NCBI GenBank assembly: GCA_036397855.1
Contig: DASWID010000105.1
Coordinates: 1 to 44,021, forward strand
Reading direction: 5' to 3'
DNA from: Thermodesulfobacteriota bacterium
GTDB taxonomy: Bacteria; Desulfobacterota_D; UBA1144; Nemesobacterales; CSP1-2
Length of the DNA stretch: 44,021 bases
The notes under the pieces are model-generated. The model had not been told where the DNA came from. It ran no database searches and saw only the letters and a program-made list of their open reading frames with translations. Positions 28,385 through 35,802 of this stretch are shown here, in pieces (the first letter of the stretch is position 1; each line of letters opens with the position of its first letter). A program made the position numbers and the translations under genes.

Positions 28385-30550
28385 ATGCAGGAATCAACAA
28401 AAAAAACAATTAAAGAAATAATTCGGGACCTACCGTCATTAATAAGAGAAGAGCTTGATTATCTCGAGAAGAAGGTTCGTGAATATCAAGCTGGCATGAT
28501 TGGCGAGATTAAATTTCAAAAGATTCGTCTGCAAATGGGAACCTATGCTCAAAGGCAGAATGGCGTCCAAATGCAGAGAATCAAGATACCGTATGGGGGG
28601 CTTACTTCTCATCAACTTAGAAGATTGGCAGACGTGACCGAAAAATACGCCAGCGGGTTCATGCATCTAACCACCAGGCAGGATGTGCAGATTTATTACG
28701 TAAAACTCCCCACAGTTCCAAATATGATGAGGGAGCTTGCTGACGCCGGTATTACAACCCGTGAGGCCTGTGGAAATACCGTAAGAAATGTTACTGCATG
28801 TCATCAATCGGGTATTTCAAGAACAGAGACATTTGATGTTACACCTTATACGGACGCCTTTGTCCAATTCATGTTGAGAAATCCCATCTGTCAGAATATG
28901 GGACGCAAATTTAAGGTAGCCTTCGAGGGTTGTTCCGATAAAGACCATGCCGGTGTCAGAATTCATGACCTCGGATTTCGTGCCAGAGTAAAAGAAATTG
29001 ACGGGGACTTAAAGAGAGGATTTCAGCTTTATGTTGGGGGCGGTTTAGGAGCGTCGCCATCCCTTGGATATCTGTGGAGTGACTTCATACCGGTCGAAGA
29101 AATGCTCCCGCTCTCTGCCTCTATCATACGGATCTTTGACCGTTATGGAGAAAGAAAGGTCCGCATGAAAGCCCGAATGAAGTTTCTCGTAAGGAAGCTG
29201 GGATTTGAGGAGTTTCGAAAGCGTGTTGAAGAAGAAAGAGCTCAACTGAAAGTAGATCAATCATGGAATGATTATCTCAAAAAAATTGATGAACATGAAA
29301 AAGCCCCGGAAAGATTCAAGGACATACCTCCGGCACCGGAGGGAATCGAAAGCGACCCAGGTTATATAAAATGGAAAGAATCTTGCGTAGTACCCCATAG
29401 GGAAGATGGATATAGGATGGTGCACGTAAGAATCAAGGTCGGGGATATAGAATCGGAGAGAGCGCGAACGTTGGCAGACATAACCGAGATATTCTCCGGC
29501 GGGGAAATTCGTATTACGATTCAGCAAAACTTTGTCTTACGCTGGGTACCAGAGGATTGCCTGCCGTCGCTTTATGCTGCCCTCAGGGAGGCAGATTTAA
29601 CCTATCTGGGAGCCGATACCTTTGAGGATATAACTGCTTGCCCAGGCGCAGACACGTGCAGATTGGGTATCACATCAGCCAAAGGATTGGCTGGAAGGCT
29701 AAGCAACGGAATGGCAAATGGTCTTTCGGAATATAAGGAGATGGCGAAGGACTTGAAGATTAAAATATCTGGATGCCCAAACGCCTGTGCACAGCATGTC
29801 TCCGCAAATATTGGTTTTCAGGGCGCGTCGATAAATCATGATGGTAGGACAGTTCCCGCAGAAATGGTTTTTGTAGGAGGCTCACTTATAGGGGATGATA
29901 CTCGGCTTGCCATGCCAATTAAAAAGATTCCTACTCGAAATGCCCCAAAGGTTGTCAAGAAACTGCTTGAGCTATACAAACACCAAAAACAGGGTGACGA
30001 GCACTTTGACCTTGTTATGCAAAGATTAGGCGCTGATCGGATAAAAGTGGAGCTTGATGAATTTACATCTATTCCATCTTTTGAAGAAGACCCCTCGTTC
30101 TATCAGGATTGGGGACATGAGGAAGAAAAGTTCGAAATTCAACAAGGAGTTAAAGGGGAGTGCGCCGGCGCGACTGTTGAGGAAAAGATCCCAACCTTCA
30201 AAGATGCTGAAAAACATCTAGAGAAGGCGCGCGCCTTTTTACACCACGGCGAATTAAAATCATCAATAATAGAATCATACCAGGCATGTTCAGCGACTGC
30301 TCATGTGCCCTTGTACACGAAATTGGTCGACCCATTTACCGATGAGCAAACAATATGGGAGTTTGAGAACATGCTTGTGCGCACAGGAGAAGCAGATAAT
30401 AAATGGATTGACATTGCTGTGCGCCTAAAGGAAAAAATCAGCATGGAACCTACAAAGGAAATCGCCGAAGAGCTGTTAGCTATAGCAGATGATATGCATT
30501 CAGAGTGCCAACAAATCCAGATGAATCTTACTCAGGCTACAAAAAACTAG
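28385..30550 (+). CDS. Siroheme nitrite/sulfite reductase with C-terminal HEPN-like extension
   Basis: Six-electron reduction of nitrite to ammonium or sulfite to sulfide with electrons from ferredoxin or a similar donor. 721 aa. Two ferredoxin-like halves surround the 4Fe-4S/siroheme site: C419-x5-C425 (ACPGADTCRLG) and C464-x3-C468 (GCPNAC). ACGNTVRNVTACHQSG and TTRQDVQIYYV are typical substrate-side segments. After residue 575, DWG...GECAGATVEEKI leads into a helical domain (about 605-715, AEKHLEKARAFLHHGELKSS) that looks HEPN-like and is absent from E. coli CysI and plant NirA. Sequence alone does not settle nitrite against sulfite. It is a single gene. Confidence 0.9.
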   Translation: MQESTKKTIKEIIRDLPSLIREELDYLEKKVREYQAGMIGEIKFQKIRLQMGTYAQRQNGVQMQRIKIPYGGLTSHQLRRLADVTEKYASGFMHLTTRQDVQIYYVKLPTVPNMMRELADAGITTREACGNTVRNVTACHQSGISRTETFDVTPYTDAFVQFMLRNPICQNMGRKFKVAFEGCSDKDHAGVRIHDLGFRARVKEIDGDLKRGFQLYVGGGLGASPSLGYLWSDFIPVEEMLPLSASIIRIFDRYGERKVRMKARMKFLVRKLGFEEFRKRVEEERAQLKVDQSWNDYLKKIDEHEKAPERFKDIPPAPEGIESDPGYIKWKESCVVPHREDGYRMVHVRIKVGDIESERARTLADITEIFSGGEIRITIQQNFVLRWVPEDCLPSLYAALREADLTYLGADTFEDITACPGADTCRLGITSAKGLAGRLSNGMANGLSEYKEMAKDLKIKISGCPNACAQHVSANIGFQGASINHDGRTVPAEMVFVGGSLIGDDTRLAMPIKKIPTRNAPKVVKKLLELYKHQKQGDEHFDLVMQRLGADRIKVELDEFTSIPSFEEDPSFYQDWGHEEEKFEIQQGVKGECAGATVEEKIPTFKDAEKHLEKARAFLHHGELKSSIIESYQACSATAHVPLYTKLVDPFTDEQTIWEFENMLVRTGEADNKWIDIAVRLKEKISMEPTKEIAEELLAIADDMHSECQQIQMNLTQATKN

Positions 30551-30732: not shown

Positions 30733-33309
30733 TCAGAAAAACGATTCTAGCTTTTCCAATACATCATCAGTTTTCCCGATGATTTTACTACATTCTGGCA
30801 AAGATTCCAAAAAGTATCTACCATAGAACTTGCTAATAATTCTCTTATCTAAAACAAGCACAGCACCCTTGTCCGTACGAGATCTTATGAGTCTCCCAAA
30901 ACCCTGTTTGAATTTTAAAACTGCGACCGGGACGGTGTATTCTAAAAACGGATCTATTCCCTGTCTTTCCATATGTTCAACTCGAGCTTCTATAATCGGA
31001 TCCGTGGGAACCCTGAATGGGAGCCTGGTAATAATAACCAACCTTAGAGCTTCTCCTGGGACATCTACTCCCTCCCAAAAACTATCGGTTGCAAAAAGAA
31101 CAGAATTAACTTCTTTTCTAAAATTATCGAGAAGTCTAGCCCGCGGAAGACTGCCCTGCTTTAATGGAACTAGCCCAAGACTCTCAAGTCGTTTACTTAT
31201 TTCCTTATAAACCAATTCAAGAAGAGAATATGATGTGAAGAGAATAAGGGCATCCCCACCAGATGCTTTAACAGCGTCGAAAATCACGGGCGAGACCTTT
31301 AAAGAGTGTTGAATATCCGTTGGCGCCGGCATATCATTGGGTATCGCGAGCAGAACCTGTTGTTCATAATCAAATGACGAAGGCAATATATGCTCTTTTA
31401 CCCTGTTGTTATCAGTTAAACCAATGCCCGATTTTAGAAAATTAAAATTGCCTCCGACAGCCATCGTAGCAGAAGTCATCACTATCGTATTACAGCTCGA
31501 ATATAGCCTTTCCCTTAAATGTGGCGAAATATCAAGTGGGGAGAGACCGATACCAGAAAGTATTCCCCCTTTTCCCACCCTACCCTCAACCCATCTTATA
31601 TAACCATCATCCTCTCGATTCAGGAATGAATCGATGACTTGGGAGAAGTAATTGACTTTATTGCCGACACCTTTAAATTCTACAAGAATCTTTGCGACAT
31701 CAGTTTCGGCCTCAAACTCCATGAGAACATCTATAAAGTTCCTTATCTCATCGAATAATTCACGAAGCTTTATACTCAGAATAGAAAATTTCTTATGAAT
31801 TTCTTCCCATCCCGCTGTCTCAAATATATCTTCTGTAATTCTTAAATTAATCTCATTTTTGGAACCTTCTTTTGCCTCAACTATCTGAAGTGAAAAATAA
31901 TAAAGCTCATCAAAGGTATTTAATACATGTTCTTCGACCATATCGACCTGTGGCGAAAGTCTTTCTTCTATTCTTCTAAGCACCTTGTTAAGTATTCCTT
32001 TTTTAAAATATTTCCTGAGCCTTGTTGTAAGATTAGCAGTGTAGAAGATCAATCCCTTTATCTCACCGCTACTTCCTTTTCTCTTTAACCTTCTCAACGC
32101 TCTTATAATCCCAAATTTTGTTGCCCTCATTCCAAAATGCGACGTAGCGGCATCTACAATATGATGGGCTTCATCAAATACAATATTTTTATAGGGGGGT
32201 AGGATTCCAGCGTCATTCTCCTCGCTTGCTCCTTTTATTGCTAAATCGGAAAAAACAAGGTGATGATTAGCAACTATAATGTGAGACGATGCAACATCCC
32301 TCCTCGCCTTATAGAAAAAGCAATTCGAGTAGTGAGGACACCTCACACGTAAACAGCTATCACTCTCTGCAGAGACCTTGTCCCAAATACCCTCAGGGGG
32401 GGTAAAATTTAAATCCGATAAAGAACCGTCCTTTGTAACCCTTGACCAATCAAGGATATCGCTAAGGATCTTGATTTCTTCATCTTCAGCAAATTCGAAT
32501 AGTCCCTCTCCAACAGTTTCAGCCCTCAGAAGGCACAGGTAATTACCCATACCTTTTACAAGAGAATGTTTAAAATCCTCATTTAGACTACTGTGAACGA
32601 GTGGGATGTCTTTCTGTGAAAGCTGCTCTTGAAGGTTAATAGTATTGGTGGAGATGACAACCCTCTCGCCATTCAGAAGAGACCAATAGACAGAAGGTAT
32701 CAGATAAGAAAGCGTTTTGCCTGTTCCCGTACCGGCTTCGATTATTGATACGAGGTTCTCATTAAACGCACTTGAGACCGCGCCGAGCATCCTTATTTGT
32801 TCTTCACGCATCTCATAATTAGAACCTAAGCTCTCGGCAACTTTACCCTTCGGCATTAGGAGTTGTTGGATACCCTCAGTCTCTAGGTGCTTTATCTCGA
32901 CTTCCTTGAAACGTTCAACAATGACATAAACCCTCGAGGCATCGTTATTAGCTATATAGAACCCGACACCATGGTTTCCGAAAACAGAGGCCATTTGTAT
33001 ATCTTGATCTGAAGGAGTTAAATTTCCAGAAGGATGATTGTGGATTACGACTTCACCAGATTTAGCAGAATCGACTACTGCGGGAACAGAATAATTATTC
33101 CCACGCGCGATCACTCTCACATTTTCTATGACGTCTCCATCCCCAAAGGAGCCAACAAAAAACACCTCATTTCCATCTGCTTCTTTAATGACCTTTGCAA
33201 ATTCCTTCTTAGCCTTTTTTGAAAAGATATCTAATTTCACAGCAAGAAAATTAACACAACTGAGAGTTTTTCCAAAAAATACAATTATTAGATTCCTAGC
33301 GTTTGACAT
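30733..33309 (-). CDS. DinG/XPD-type DNA helicase with N-terminal RadC-like JAMM domain
   Basis: 858 aa from ATG 33309 (a GTG lies 3 bases earlier). Numbering below counts from that GTG. Residues about 30-140 hold a JAMM metalloprotease-type motif H91-N-H93-PSGNLTP-S101-DQ-D104, as in RadC. Residues about 165-859 are a superfamily 2 iron-sulfur helicase: Walker A AGTGTGKT (193-200), four cluster cysteines C260, C320, C325 and C331, DEAH box 380-383 and motif VI QGFGRLIRS. DinG helicases unwind 5'-overhang or R-loop DNA in repair. The JAMM domain would either cleave a peptide bond or only bind. It is a single gene, convergent with the reductase. The first 25 residues may be too long. Confidence 0.88.
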   Translation of the reverse strand: MSNARNLIIVFFGKTLSCVNFLAVKLDIFSKKAKKEFAKVIKEADGNEVFFVGSFGDGDVIENVRVIARGNNYSVPAVVDSAKSGEVVIHNHPSGNLTPSDQDIQMASVFGNHGVGFYIANNDASRVYVIVERFKEVEIKHLETEGIQQLLMPKGKVAESLGSNYEMREEQIRMLGAVSSAFNENLVSIIEAGTGTGKTLSYLIPSVYWSLLNGERVVISTNTINLQEQLSQKDIPLVHSSLNEDFKHSLVKGMGNYLCLLRAETVGEGLFEFAEDEEIKILSDILDWSRVTKDGSLSDLNFTPPEGIWDKVSAESDSCLRVRCPHYSNCFFYKARRDVASSHIIVANHHLVFSDLAIKGASEENDAGILPPYKNIVFDEAHHIVDAATSHFGMRATKFGIIRALRRLKRKGSSGEIKGLIFYTANLTTRLRKYFKKGILNKVLRRIEERLSPQVDMVEEHVLNTFDELYYFSLQIVEAKEGSKNEINLRITEDIFETAGWEEIHKKFSILSIKLRELFDEIRNFIDVLMEFEAETDVAKILVEFKGVGNKVNYFSQVIDSFLNREDDGYIRWVEGRVGKGGILSGIGLSPLDISPHLRERLYSSCNTIVMTSATMAVGGNFNFLKSGIGLTDNNRVKEHILPSSFDYEQQVLLAIPNDMPAPTDIQHSLKVSPVIFDAVKASGGDALILFTSYSLLELVYKEISKRLESLGLVPLKQGSLPRARLLDNFRKEVNSVLFATDSFWEGVDVPGEALRLVIITRLPFRVPTDPIIEARVEHMERQGIDPFLEYTVPVAVLKFKQGFGRLIRSRTDKGAVLVLDKRIISKFYGRYFLESLPECSKIIGKTDDVLEKLESFF

Positions 33310-33312
33310 CAC

Positions 33313-33606
33313 AAAAATAGACTGGGTTTTCCAACATCGCTAACGGTTAGGTCACGAGTCTTGCTCGTGACAGGCGATTAACCAACCAGCAAGCCTGGCC
33401 TGAGTTAAGTCGAAGGGACTGGTCGGCTACCCGAGTAATTTCGATTTGAAAATTACGCCAGAACGGCTTATCTCGGAATCGTATCGATACCCGATCTAAG
33501 ACTTCGGGTGTGACAGAAAACGGATCTTCAAACCTTCTGGAGAATGCTCTTATCTTTCTCTATGGAAAACGCAGGTAAAAAAGGGTAGTTTATCACTGTG
33601 CACGAT
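33313..33606. other. Gap with hairpin repeat before tRNA-Ser
   Basis: The stem GTCACGAG/CTCGTGAC (33351-33371, loop TCTTG) is framed by GGTTAG and GATTAACC. It is preceded by TGGGTTTTCCAAC, which recalls the right hairpin of the 607-671 repeat. A CTGAGTTAAGTCGAAGGG fragment follows. No gene is seen. Confidence 0.5.
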
Positions 33607-33695
33607 GGAGGGGTGGCCGAGTGGACGAAGGCGCCGGTCTCGAAAACCGGTAGAGCCTTTGTGGGCTCTCGTGGGTTCAAATCCCACCCCCTCCG
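33607..33695 (+). tRNA. tRNA-Ser (anticodon CGA), CCA not encoded
   Basis: Acceptor GGAGGGG/CCCCTCC with discriminator G33695. Anticodon stem CCGGT/ACCGG with loop CTCGAAA (anticodon CGA at 33641-33643). Long variable arm AGAGCC-TTTGT-GGGCTCT, as in serine tRNAs, and T arm GTGGG-TTCAAAT-CCCAC. TTT follows, so CCA must be added enzymatically. Confidence 0.97.
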
Positions 33696-33772
33696 TTTAA
33701 AGCAGTTTGAGATTAGAAATGCAAAAAAAGAGATTCGACCTCCCTTCAAACAGGGTCATTTATTCTCAAACG

Positions 33773-34482: not shown

Positions 34483-35067
34483 ATGATACTCAGTTATAGA
34501 AAGATAACTTACGCAATACCCTGTATCTTAATCATATTCCTTGGGACCTTCTTTATAAACTGCTCAAAATCATACGCGACCCGTGAACTCGAGGAGACCA
34601 CTTTGGATATAGCAAGGAGTTCAAATAACATAGTGGTAGCAAAATGCATTTCAACTGAATCAAGGTGGAATGAACAGGGGTCTTTAATATTTACATATGT
34701 AACATTTCAGTTACAGGATACTGTTAAAGGAGATAGTACAGAGGAAAATTTAGCCCTAAGATTTTTAGGTGGCCGCGTCGGGGACACAGTACAGTCTGTA
34801 CCCGATATGCCTGAATTCTCTGAGAATGAAGAAGTAATGCTCTTCCTCGGCCCAAAAAATAAATCTGGCTATCAAACGCTAAGCAGCATTCAAAACGGCG
34901 TGCTTAGGATTCAAACCGACTTAGACACTGGTAATAAATTAATAACAACGCCGACCACTGGTATTCAAATTTATAAGAGAAATACAGATAAATCCATATC
35001 TTCACCCTATGAAAATGGAGTCTTATTGGAAGACTTCAATTATAGTCTCAAGAAGGCAATTGATTGA
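34483..35067 (+). CDS. Secreted or lipid-anchored protein, unknown function
   Basis: 194 aa. The N-terminal signal (about 8-27, IPCILIIFLGTFFINC) has a possible lipobox Cys at FFINC. The mature part is a mixed domain (EETTLDIARSSNNIVVAKCI; SENEEVMLFLGPKNKSGYQT) with no recognised catalytic motif. It lies 30 bases before a matrixin protease and is followed by a second lipoprotein, all in one direction, so it is probably part of a secreted three-gene cassette. It could be a chaperone, inhibitor or substrate of the protease; this is a guess from position. Confidence 0.65.
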   Translation: MILSYRKITYAIPCILIIFLGTFFINCSKSYATRELEETTLDIARSSNNIVVAKCISTESRWNEQGSLIFTYVTFQLQDTVKGDSTEENLALRFLGGRVGDTVQSVPDMPEFSENEEVMLFLGPKNKSGYQTLSSIQNGVLRIQTDLDTGNKLITTPTTGIQIYKRNTDKSISSPYENGVLLEDFNYSLKKAID

Positions 35068-35097: not shown

Positions 35098-35802
35098 ATG
35101 ACTAAACTAAGAATAGTAACAGCGTCTCTTATAGCCGTGTTTTTTGTGCCATGCATTGTATTTGGTTACCATATACTGAATAACCGAAATTCGTCGGGTA
35201 ATTTCGTATTCCTTAAATGGGGAGGCACAACAGTAAATTTAAGACTAGATCCTGGCACCTTGGGAGGAGGAGATGGAAGAGAAATTGTAGAAGAGGCATG
35301 TGAGACCTGGAACAACGTACCAACCGCGGTTAGCCTCTGTGGAAATTTTTCCACTGTGTCCGAAGACATTACGGTCGAAAATTATGAATCTCTTATATCT
35401 ACTAATGACGGTAATATTGATGTAATCTTTGATGAAACAGGTGAAATCCTAGCTGATCTGGGGTTCTCTCCCAGCTCGACTCTGGGAGTAAGTTCTGTCA
35501 CAAGCAACGTAGCAAACGGTGAAATACAAAATGTGCTTTTAGTTTTAAACGGTAGTTTACAAAGCAGTTCGTCATCGGACCTGCTTTCAACATCAATCCA
35601 CGAGATGGGCCATGGTTGGGGATTGGCCCATATACCAATAGGTGGAATTAACAGTGATAATTTTACTCATGGGCTCGAACCGATCGATCCCGAAGCAATT
35701 CCAACGATGTTTCCGTTTAACATACCGACTAATGATGCACTTGGAAGGACCTTGGAACTTGATGATGAGGTTGGAATATCGGTAAGATACCATTCCAACT
35801 GA
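35098..35802 (+). CDS. Matrixin-type zinc metalloprotease, secreted
   Basis: 234 aa with an N-terminal signal (about 5-23, IVTASLIAVFFVPCIVFG). The metzincin zinc motif is H168-E169-x2-H172-x5-H178 (HEMGHGWGLAH), followed by a probable Met-turn in AIPTMFPF. An upstream WNNVPTAVSL segment is typical of bacterial matrixins. Expected location is outside the cell or in the periplasm. It is the middle gene of the 34483-36381 cassette: 30 bases after the first gene and 27 before the third. Substrate unknown. Confidence 0.88.
   Translation: MTKLRIVTASLIAVFFVPCIVFGYHILNNRNSSGNFVFLKWGGTTVNLRLDPGTLGGGDGREIVEEACETWNNVPTAVSLCGNFSTVSEDITVENYESLISTNDGNIDVIFDETGEILADLGFSPSSTLGVSSVTSNVANGEIQNVLLVLNGSLQSSSSSDLLSTSIHEMGHGWGLAHIPIGGINSDNFTHGLEPIDPEAIPTMFPFNIPTNDALGRTLELDDEVGISVRYHSN

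Follow-up and report, generated by a model that had tools for sequence, protein, structure and literature searches.

A RadC-like JAMM core fused to a DinG-superfamily iron-sulfur helicase in Dadabacteria, and its possible role on protein-blocked DNA

Why should a metallo-hydrolase core of the JAMM type be carried on the same chain as an iron-sulfur helicase, and on what would it act? This question was raised by an open reading frame on the minus strand, positions 30733-33312, of a DNA stretch of 44,021 nucleotides (the window), whose genome is taken as Candidatus Dadabacteria. A first-pass annotation, made from the letters of the DNA, had seen there one frame with a DinG-type helicase behind a RadC-type JAMM domain. 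The frame is indeed uninterrupted, with 859 codons and 0 internal stops, and the features assigned to it and to its surroundings are the following.

30733..33312, minus strand: RadC-like DinG gene, whole open reading frame (859 aa from GTG 33312; likely start GTG 33240)
32893..33240, minus strand: RadC-like JAMM/JAB core domain, residues 25-140 (Pfam RadC; AlphaFold2 pLDDT 94.4; Foldseek top match RadC 2qlc)
33166..33168, minus strand: catalytic Glu E49 of the JAMM site (invariant in 64/64; 38/41 in the profile-chosen set)
33001..33042, minus strand: HNHPSGNLTPSDQD, with the predicted zinc ligands H91, H93 and D104, plus S101 (motif in the sequence; conservation)
30736..32850, minus strand: DinG/YoaA/XPD-type helicase, residues 155-859 (Pfam Helicase_C_2; NCBIfam YoaA best; Foldseek E. 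coli DinG 6fwr)
32716..32736, minus strand: Walker A (motif I) AGTGTGK, residues 193-199 (K199 invariant in 64/64)
32320..32535, minus strand: Fe-S cluster cysteines C260, C320, C325 and C331 (58/64, 62/64, 64/64 and 64/64)
32164..32175, minus strand: DEAH box (motif II), residues 380-383 (sequence; D, E and H invariant in alignment A2)
30880..30906, minus strand: motif VI QGFGRLIRS, residues 803-811 (Q, G, G, R, L and R invariant in alignment A2)
33606..33696, plus strand: tRNA-Ser(CGA), upstream on the opposite strand (fused gene without operon link to its upstream neighbour)

Translation probably starts at GTG 33240 (residue 25), since homology begins near this residue and relatives from genus g11 have a Met there; residues 1-24 of the frame are thus probably untranslated. 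We can practically dismiss the idea that two adjacent genes were read as one or that the helicase is produced from an internal start, since the frame is continuous in Dadabacteria, Geobacterales, Gemmatimonadota and others, cultured strains included, no conserved internal start was found for the helicase part (Met 153 and Met 168 are not kept among relatives) and promoter-like sites at the locus do not exceed the level of shuffled sequences. The latter two observations also speak against a separate start with independent transcription of the helicase, which the first-pass annotation had named as a refutation. That a RadC-like JAMM core and a DinG-superfamily Fe-S helicase are joined in a single polypeptide is supported. 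In two Gemmatimonadota loci (L100, L105) the fused helicase lies within a much longer frame of 1249-1255 codons from stop to stop; the extra length may stem from an additional N-terminal domain or from reading through the GC-rich sequence upstream.

The N-terminal part of the frame carries the motif H91-N-H93-P-S-G-x4-S101-x2-D104, with H91, H93, S101 and D104 exactly where the first-pass annotation had placed them; E49, which completes the set, had escaped it. Pfam RadC matched residues 85-109 above its cut-off (25.5 bits vs 22.1). An AlphaFold2 model of residues 25-142, built with 28 homologues, reached a pLDDT of 94.4 and has the JAB/MPN fold. When this model was compared with the PDB by Foldseek, RadC 2qlc came first (E 7e-5) and AfJAMM 1oi0 next, with Rpn11, BRCC36, PfJAMM1 and AMSH-type proteases among the lower matches. 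A sequence profile of the core also found 2qlc (1.3e-7), and AfJAMM only marginally (0.14, 0.17). JAMM deubiquitinases use long insertions for substrate recognition; the present core is a minimal one of 118 residues without such insertions. Compared with the JAMM/MPN+ motif EXnHS/THX7SXXD, the spacing E-x41-H-N-H-x7-S-x2-D retains all ligands and has N at the S/T position, as RadC does, while JAMM isopeptidases are described as carrying H-S/T-H (PMC300881).

The fused core is RadC-like without being a RadC of the usual kind. Its match to the NCBIfam RadC equivalog, at 23.2 bits, stayed below the cut-off of 180. RadC consists of a JAMM core beside a helix-hairpin-helix (HhH) DNA-binding half. 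The fused protein shares with RadC (UPF0758, PDB 2qlc) the JAB fold, the HNHPSG..PS..D motif and the best structural match. It differs by forming a separate clade and by lacking both the HhH half, as its JAB core begins directly at residue ~25, and the LDHIIVG tail of RadC. The window's own genome encodes in addition a normal two-part RadC (G000:C155, L001), which does have an HhH-type N-terminal half.

The helicase part was matched by the Pfam families DEAD, ResIII and Helicase_C_2 (158.8 bits), and the four cluster cysteines lie behind the JAMM part, as had been noted before. "DinG-type" needs to be qualified, however: the assignment to the DinG superfamily of Fe-S helicases stands, but YoaA was the best NCBIfam match (545.6 bits, cut-off for repair_DEAH_YoaA 680) and outscored the E. 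coli-type DinG, PRK11747 (418.8 bits, cut-off 598), both remaining below their equivalog cut-offs. In a Foldseek search with the full-length AlphaFold2 model (pLDDT 87.7, pTM 0.80), E. coli DinG 6fwr was best (2.2e-40), followed by S. aureus ExoDinG and XPD. The Pfam RadC match above cut-off, the Helicase_C_2 score, the invariance of the JAMM residues in 64/64 homologues and the JAB fold together indicate that the assignment of the two domains is more than chance. A defence-system reading was rejected: PADLOC matched the helicase part only, chiefly with type IV DinG models. NCBIfam Csf4 (CasDinG of type IV CRISPR) scored 99 bits against a cut-off of 400, and no CRISPR-associated genes were found among the neighbours examined.

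In E. coli, YoaA has a partner in HolC, which is a subunit of the clamp loader. We could not detect HolC in any of the 44 relatives' genomes searched, the window's own included, with E. coli and Caulobacter as positive controls, and the fused gene was the only DinG-family match in its own genome.

Cheng 2025 (PMC11981726) gives the name RadC-like DinG to exactly such proteins, which are reported to have conserved putative catalytic E/H/H/D residues, a zinc model, a YoaA-like architecture and no HolC; the structure model there was taken from Desulfuromonas soudanensis. Like them, the window protein is a one-chain fusion with an N-terminal RadC-like domain holding the E, the two H and the D (E49/H91/H93/D104), followed by a MD1-FeS-Arch-MD2 helicase with FeS domain, Walker A and helicase motifs, in a HolC-less genome. 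We are therefore highly confident that the gene product is a RadC-like DinG, i.e. a predicted Fe-S 5'-3' helicase of the DinG/YoaA/XPD superfamily with an N-terminal, catalytically intact RadC-like JAMM metallo-hydrolase core. The fusion is already in print: besides Cheng 2025, Iyer 2017 and an earlier paper cited there mention RadC-DinG/RAD3 fusions (PMC5512222), that is, the same domain pair, whose RadC-like domain was read by these authors as nuclease-like; we found no account of its distribution there. A text search of the literature for the class name returned no paper besides Cheng 2025, the main text of which does not name Dadabacteria and Gemmatimonadota; nor did we find mention there of the degenerate and domain-less lineages described below. 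The class being known, what is new here is the Dadabacteria member, an estimate of its frequency, the single clade, the finding that the fusion is not tied to radC, and the lineages with degenerate sites.

How widespread the domain pair is had been left as a question by the first-pass annotation. It was addressed by searching 387 genomes, 329 of which (G058-G386) lie outside the taxonomic class, with the domain profile, so that members were picked without regard to their ligands. Fused JAMM domains scored at least 65 bits and RadC-level matches at most 44 bits, with a gap between. Outside the class, 41 of the 329 sampled bacterial genomes (~12%), from many phyla, have the fusion, and orthologues occur across the host's own order of Dadabacteria. 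Carriers among the matches listed include Citrifermentans, Geobacter, Geotalea, Oryzomonas, Gemmatimonadota, Sumerlaeota, KSB1, Spirochaetes and a Fusobacteria MAG. In these 41 genomes all high-scoring domains were on frames of at least 651 aa, except two that run off contig ends. E49, H91, N92, H93, P94, S101 and D104 were invariant in the 64 fused homologues collected first, and all five catalytic residues (E/H/H/S/D) were kept in 38 of the 41 outside-class genomes found by profile. The loss of the JAMM ligands in all homologues, which the first-pass annotation had named as a refutation, was not what we saw: nearly all keep them. A phage or mobile origin was rejected, as none of the 19 matching viral contigs has the JAMM part.

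In a tree of 105 JAB domains (79 fused and 26 RadC), all 79 fused JAMMs were split from the 26 RadC by one branch with support 100/100, and Geobacter relatives, Gemmatimonadota and Dadabacteria each cohered. This single, fully supported branch suggests one old fusion event followed by mostly joint inheritance, and on the basis of the tree we rejected the idea that the fused JAMM was recently shuffled in from the radC of its host. The helicase tree, which was built quickly, has long branches and an uncertain root, and only the clustering of the fused forms was used from it (5 changes vs 24.9 in shuffles); given this root and these branches, we do not infer the loss of a JAMM domain from unfused YoaA or ExoDinG. 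Whether carriers keep a separate radC, a check proposed at the outset, received a divided answer: the window's own genome does, but radC was missing by Pfam search in all 14 genomes of genus g11 (G011, G015, G018, G022, G024, G026, G028, G030, G032, G034, G036, G038, G040, G042), which keep the fused gene. Conversely, Dadabacteria family f5 (L033 in G010, L034 in G014) has the helicase without the JAMM domain, and radC elsewhere in the genome. The two are therefore not obligate partners, since either can be lost without the other.

Family f5 also indicates that the JAMM domain is dispensable there, as do two other lineages in which its site has degraded. In G184 and G320, of one genus, the Glu is absent and T replaces S101; in G226 both His are lost and D stands in place of the Glu, although G364, from another genus of the same family, has the whole site. 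The domain itself is kept in all three genomes. These pseudo-JAMM fused helicases (L219, G226:C1:474000-484000; L220, G184:C190:58000-70000; L249, G320:C256:13500-17800) are comparable to the published pseudo-exonuclease DinG.

The gene neighbourhood was of little help in the search for a substrate. With tRNA-Ser on the opposite strand upstream, along with a KDPG-aldolase-like gene, the fused gene stands alone and shares no operon with the gene upstream of it; the downstream sulfite/nitrite-reductase-type gene is convergent. No neighbour families common to different phyla were found, so that an operon partner as a clue to the substrate was dropped; the genes that recurred nearby in Dadabacteria were limited to one of RNase R type and a few with metabolic functions. 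We note in passing that the sulfite/nitrite reductase (window 28385-30550, plus strand) has a C-terminal extension past its reductase domains and that several Dadabacteria have it in the vicinity of the fused gene (cluster 9). A matrixin-like protein with the sequence HEMGHGWGLAH (window 35098-35802, plus strand; Peptidase_M10 21.3 bits, just under the cut-off of 24) adjoins a protein at window 34483-35067 (plus strand), and a similar small gene set is found by Dadabacteria locus L049 (clusters 38-40).

What, then, might the JAMM core do? It is reasonable to suppose that JAMM domain and helicase may share one target. Our tentative reading, to which we give a probability of roughly 0.4, is that the helicase drives into proteins bound to single-stranded DNA and that the JAMM site cleaves them. 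The helicase would load at stalled forks, gaps or R-loops, on their single-stranded DNA, and translocate into obstacles, and the zinc site would hydrolyze the protein stuck on the strand, whether this is crosslinked covalently to the DNA or forms a tight roadblock. DNA targeting, for which RadC has its HhH half, would here fall to the helicase. As these genomes lack HolC and a second detectable DinG-family helicase, the fused protein would take on the general housekeeping duties of YoaA/DinG, with the addition of its own cleaving domain. YoaA assists forks in getting past damage, and ExoDinG moves 5'-3' on single-stranded DNA, as do DinG/YoaA-type helicases. Neither YoaA nor DinG of E. coli, with the same superfamily, Fe-S cysteines and motifs, has a JAMM domain, and YoaA's partner HolC is absent from the host genomes. 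ExoDinG (S. aureus DinG, 8zef/9ii8) likewise bears an extra N-terminal enzyme domain, but of the DnaQ exonuclease type.

Several observations are in line with cleavage of protein: the JAMM domain was always carried by a frame of helicase size, unless a contig end truncated it, its fold is nearest to RadC and then to AfJAMM and other JAMM proteases, characterized archaeal and eukaryotic JAMM relatives are described as peptidases or isopeptidases (PMC11981726, PMC300881), and the conservation of the E/H/H/S/D set favors a catalytic over a purely structural metal, with the Glu, kept in almost all lineages, speaking against a purely structural domain. Others point the other way, namely HNH instead of the HS/TH of known JAMM peptidases, the minimal size of the core and the reported lack of a groove for the ubiquitin tail in RadC-type JABs (PMC5512222); furthermore, our literature search found no published activity for RadC or RadC-like DinG. 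The loss of the domain in family f5, its decay in two other lineages and the lack of a neighbouring gene common to different phyla also count against this reading. A working analogy is provided by FANCJ, an XPD-family Fe-S helicase that loads on single-stranded DNA, meets crosslinked proteins and unfolds them, upon which the zinc metalloprotease SPRTN cuts (PMC12279946). In this eukaryotic case, however, helicase and protease are distinct proteins, SPRTN does not belong to the JAMM enzymes and the protease parts are not homologous. That RadC-like DinG is a one-chain bacterial counterpart, its Fe-S helicase unfolding DNA-crosslinked proteins and feeding them to its own JAMM protease site, appears rather unlikely.

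The main rival, a nuclease role of the JAMM core, we consider rather unlikely too. It draws on S. aureus DinG, with its proven 3'-5' exonuclease at the corresponding slot, and on the exonuclease-DinGs that neighbour the fused forms in our helicase tree, a quick build of uncertain root. We know of no nuclease with a JAMM fold, however. Other DinG subgroups are reported to have nucleases in the equivalent N-terminal slot (PMC11981726), and Iyer proposed RadC-type JABs as possible nucleases on account of this common slot, of their fusions to HhH and to DinG and of the lack of a ubiquitin groove (PMC5512222). The structural comparisons do not favor this: the DALI search of Cheng (PMC11981726) and our Foldseek search both found metalloproteases, not nucleases.

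Less probable still would be a zinc-binding JAMM core whose main task is to recruit the helicase or to regulate it, in place of the YoaA-HolC contact, with catalysis being minor. The absence of HolC would fit, and G184, G320 and G226, by keeping the domain despite degenerate sites, show that it can persist without catalysis, so that a non-catalytic use is possible in such rare lineages. Retention of all five catalytic residues elsewhere, the Glu that is not a ligand included, speaks against such a role. It seems very improbable that the steps in which JAMM and helicase act are unrelated and that the two were joined for co-expression only: radC and the fusion do come and go separately, as genus g11 and family f5 illustrate, but the fusion appears to be a single, very old one, kept in many phyla and almost never split.

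RadC-type JAMM domains are very widespread. With a helicase of known translocation direction attached, the RadC-like DinG would be a tractable reagent for JAMM activity on DNA-bound substrates, and nature offers the controls, namely family f5 without the domain, the lineages with degraded sites and genus g11 without radC. Since the class was already described, the value of the present data lies in a testable question and not in a discovery. If the reading along the lines of FANCJ and SPRTN were true, it would provide the first defined chemistry for RadC-type JAMM domains.
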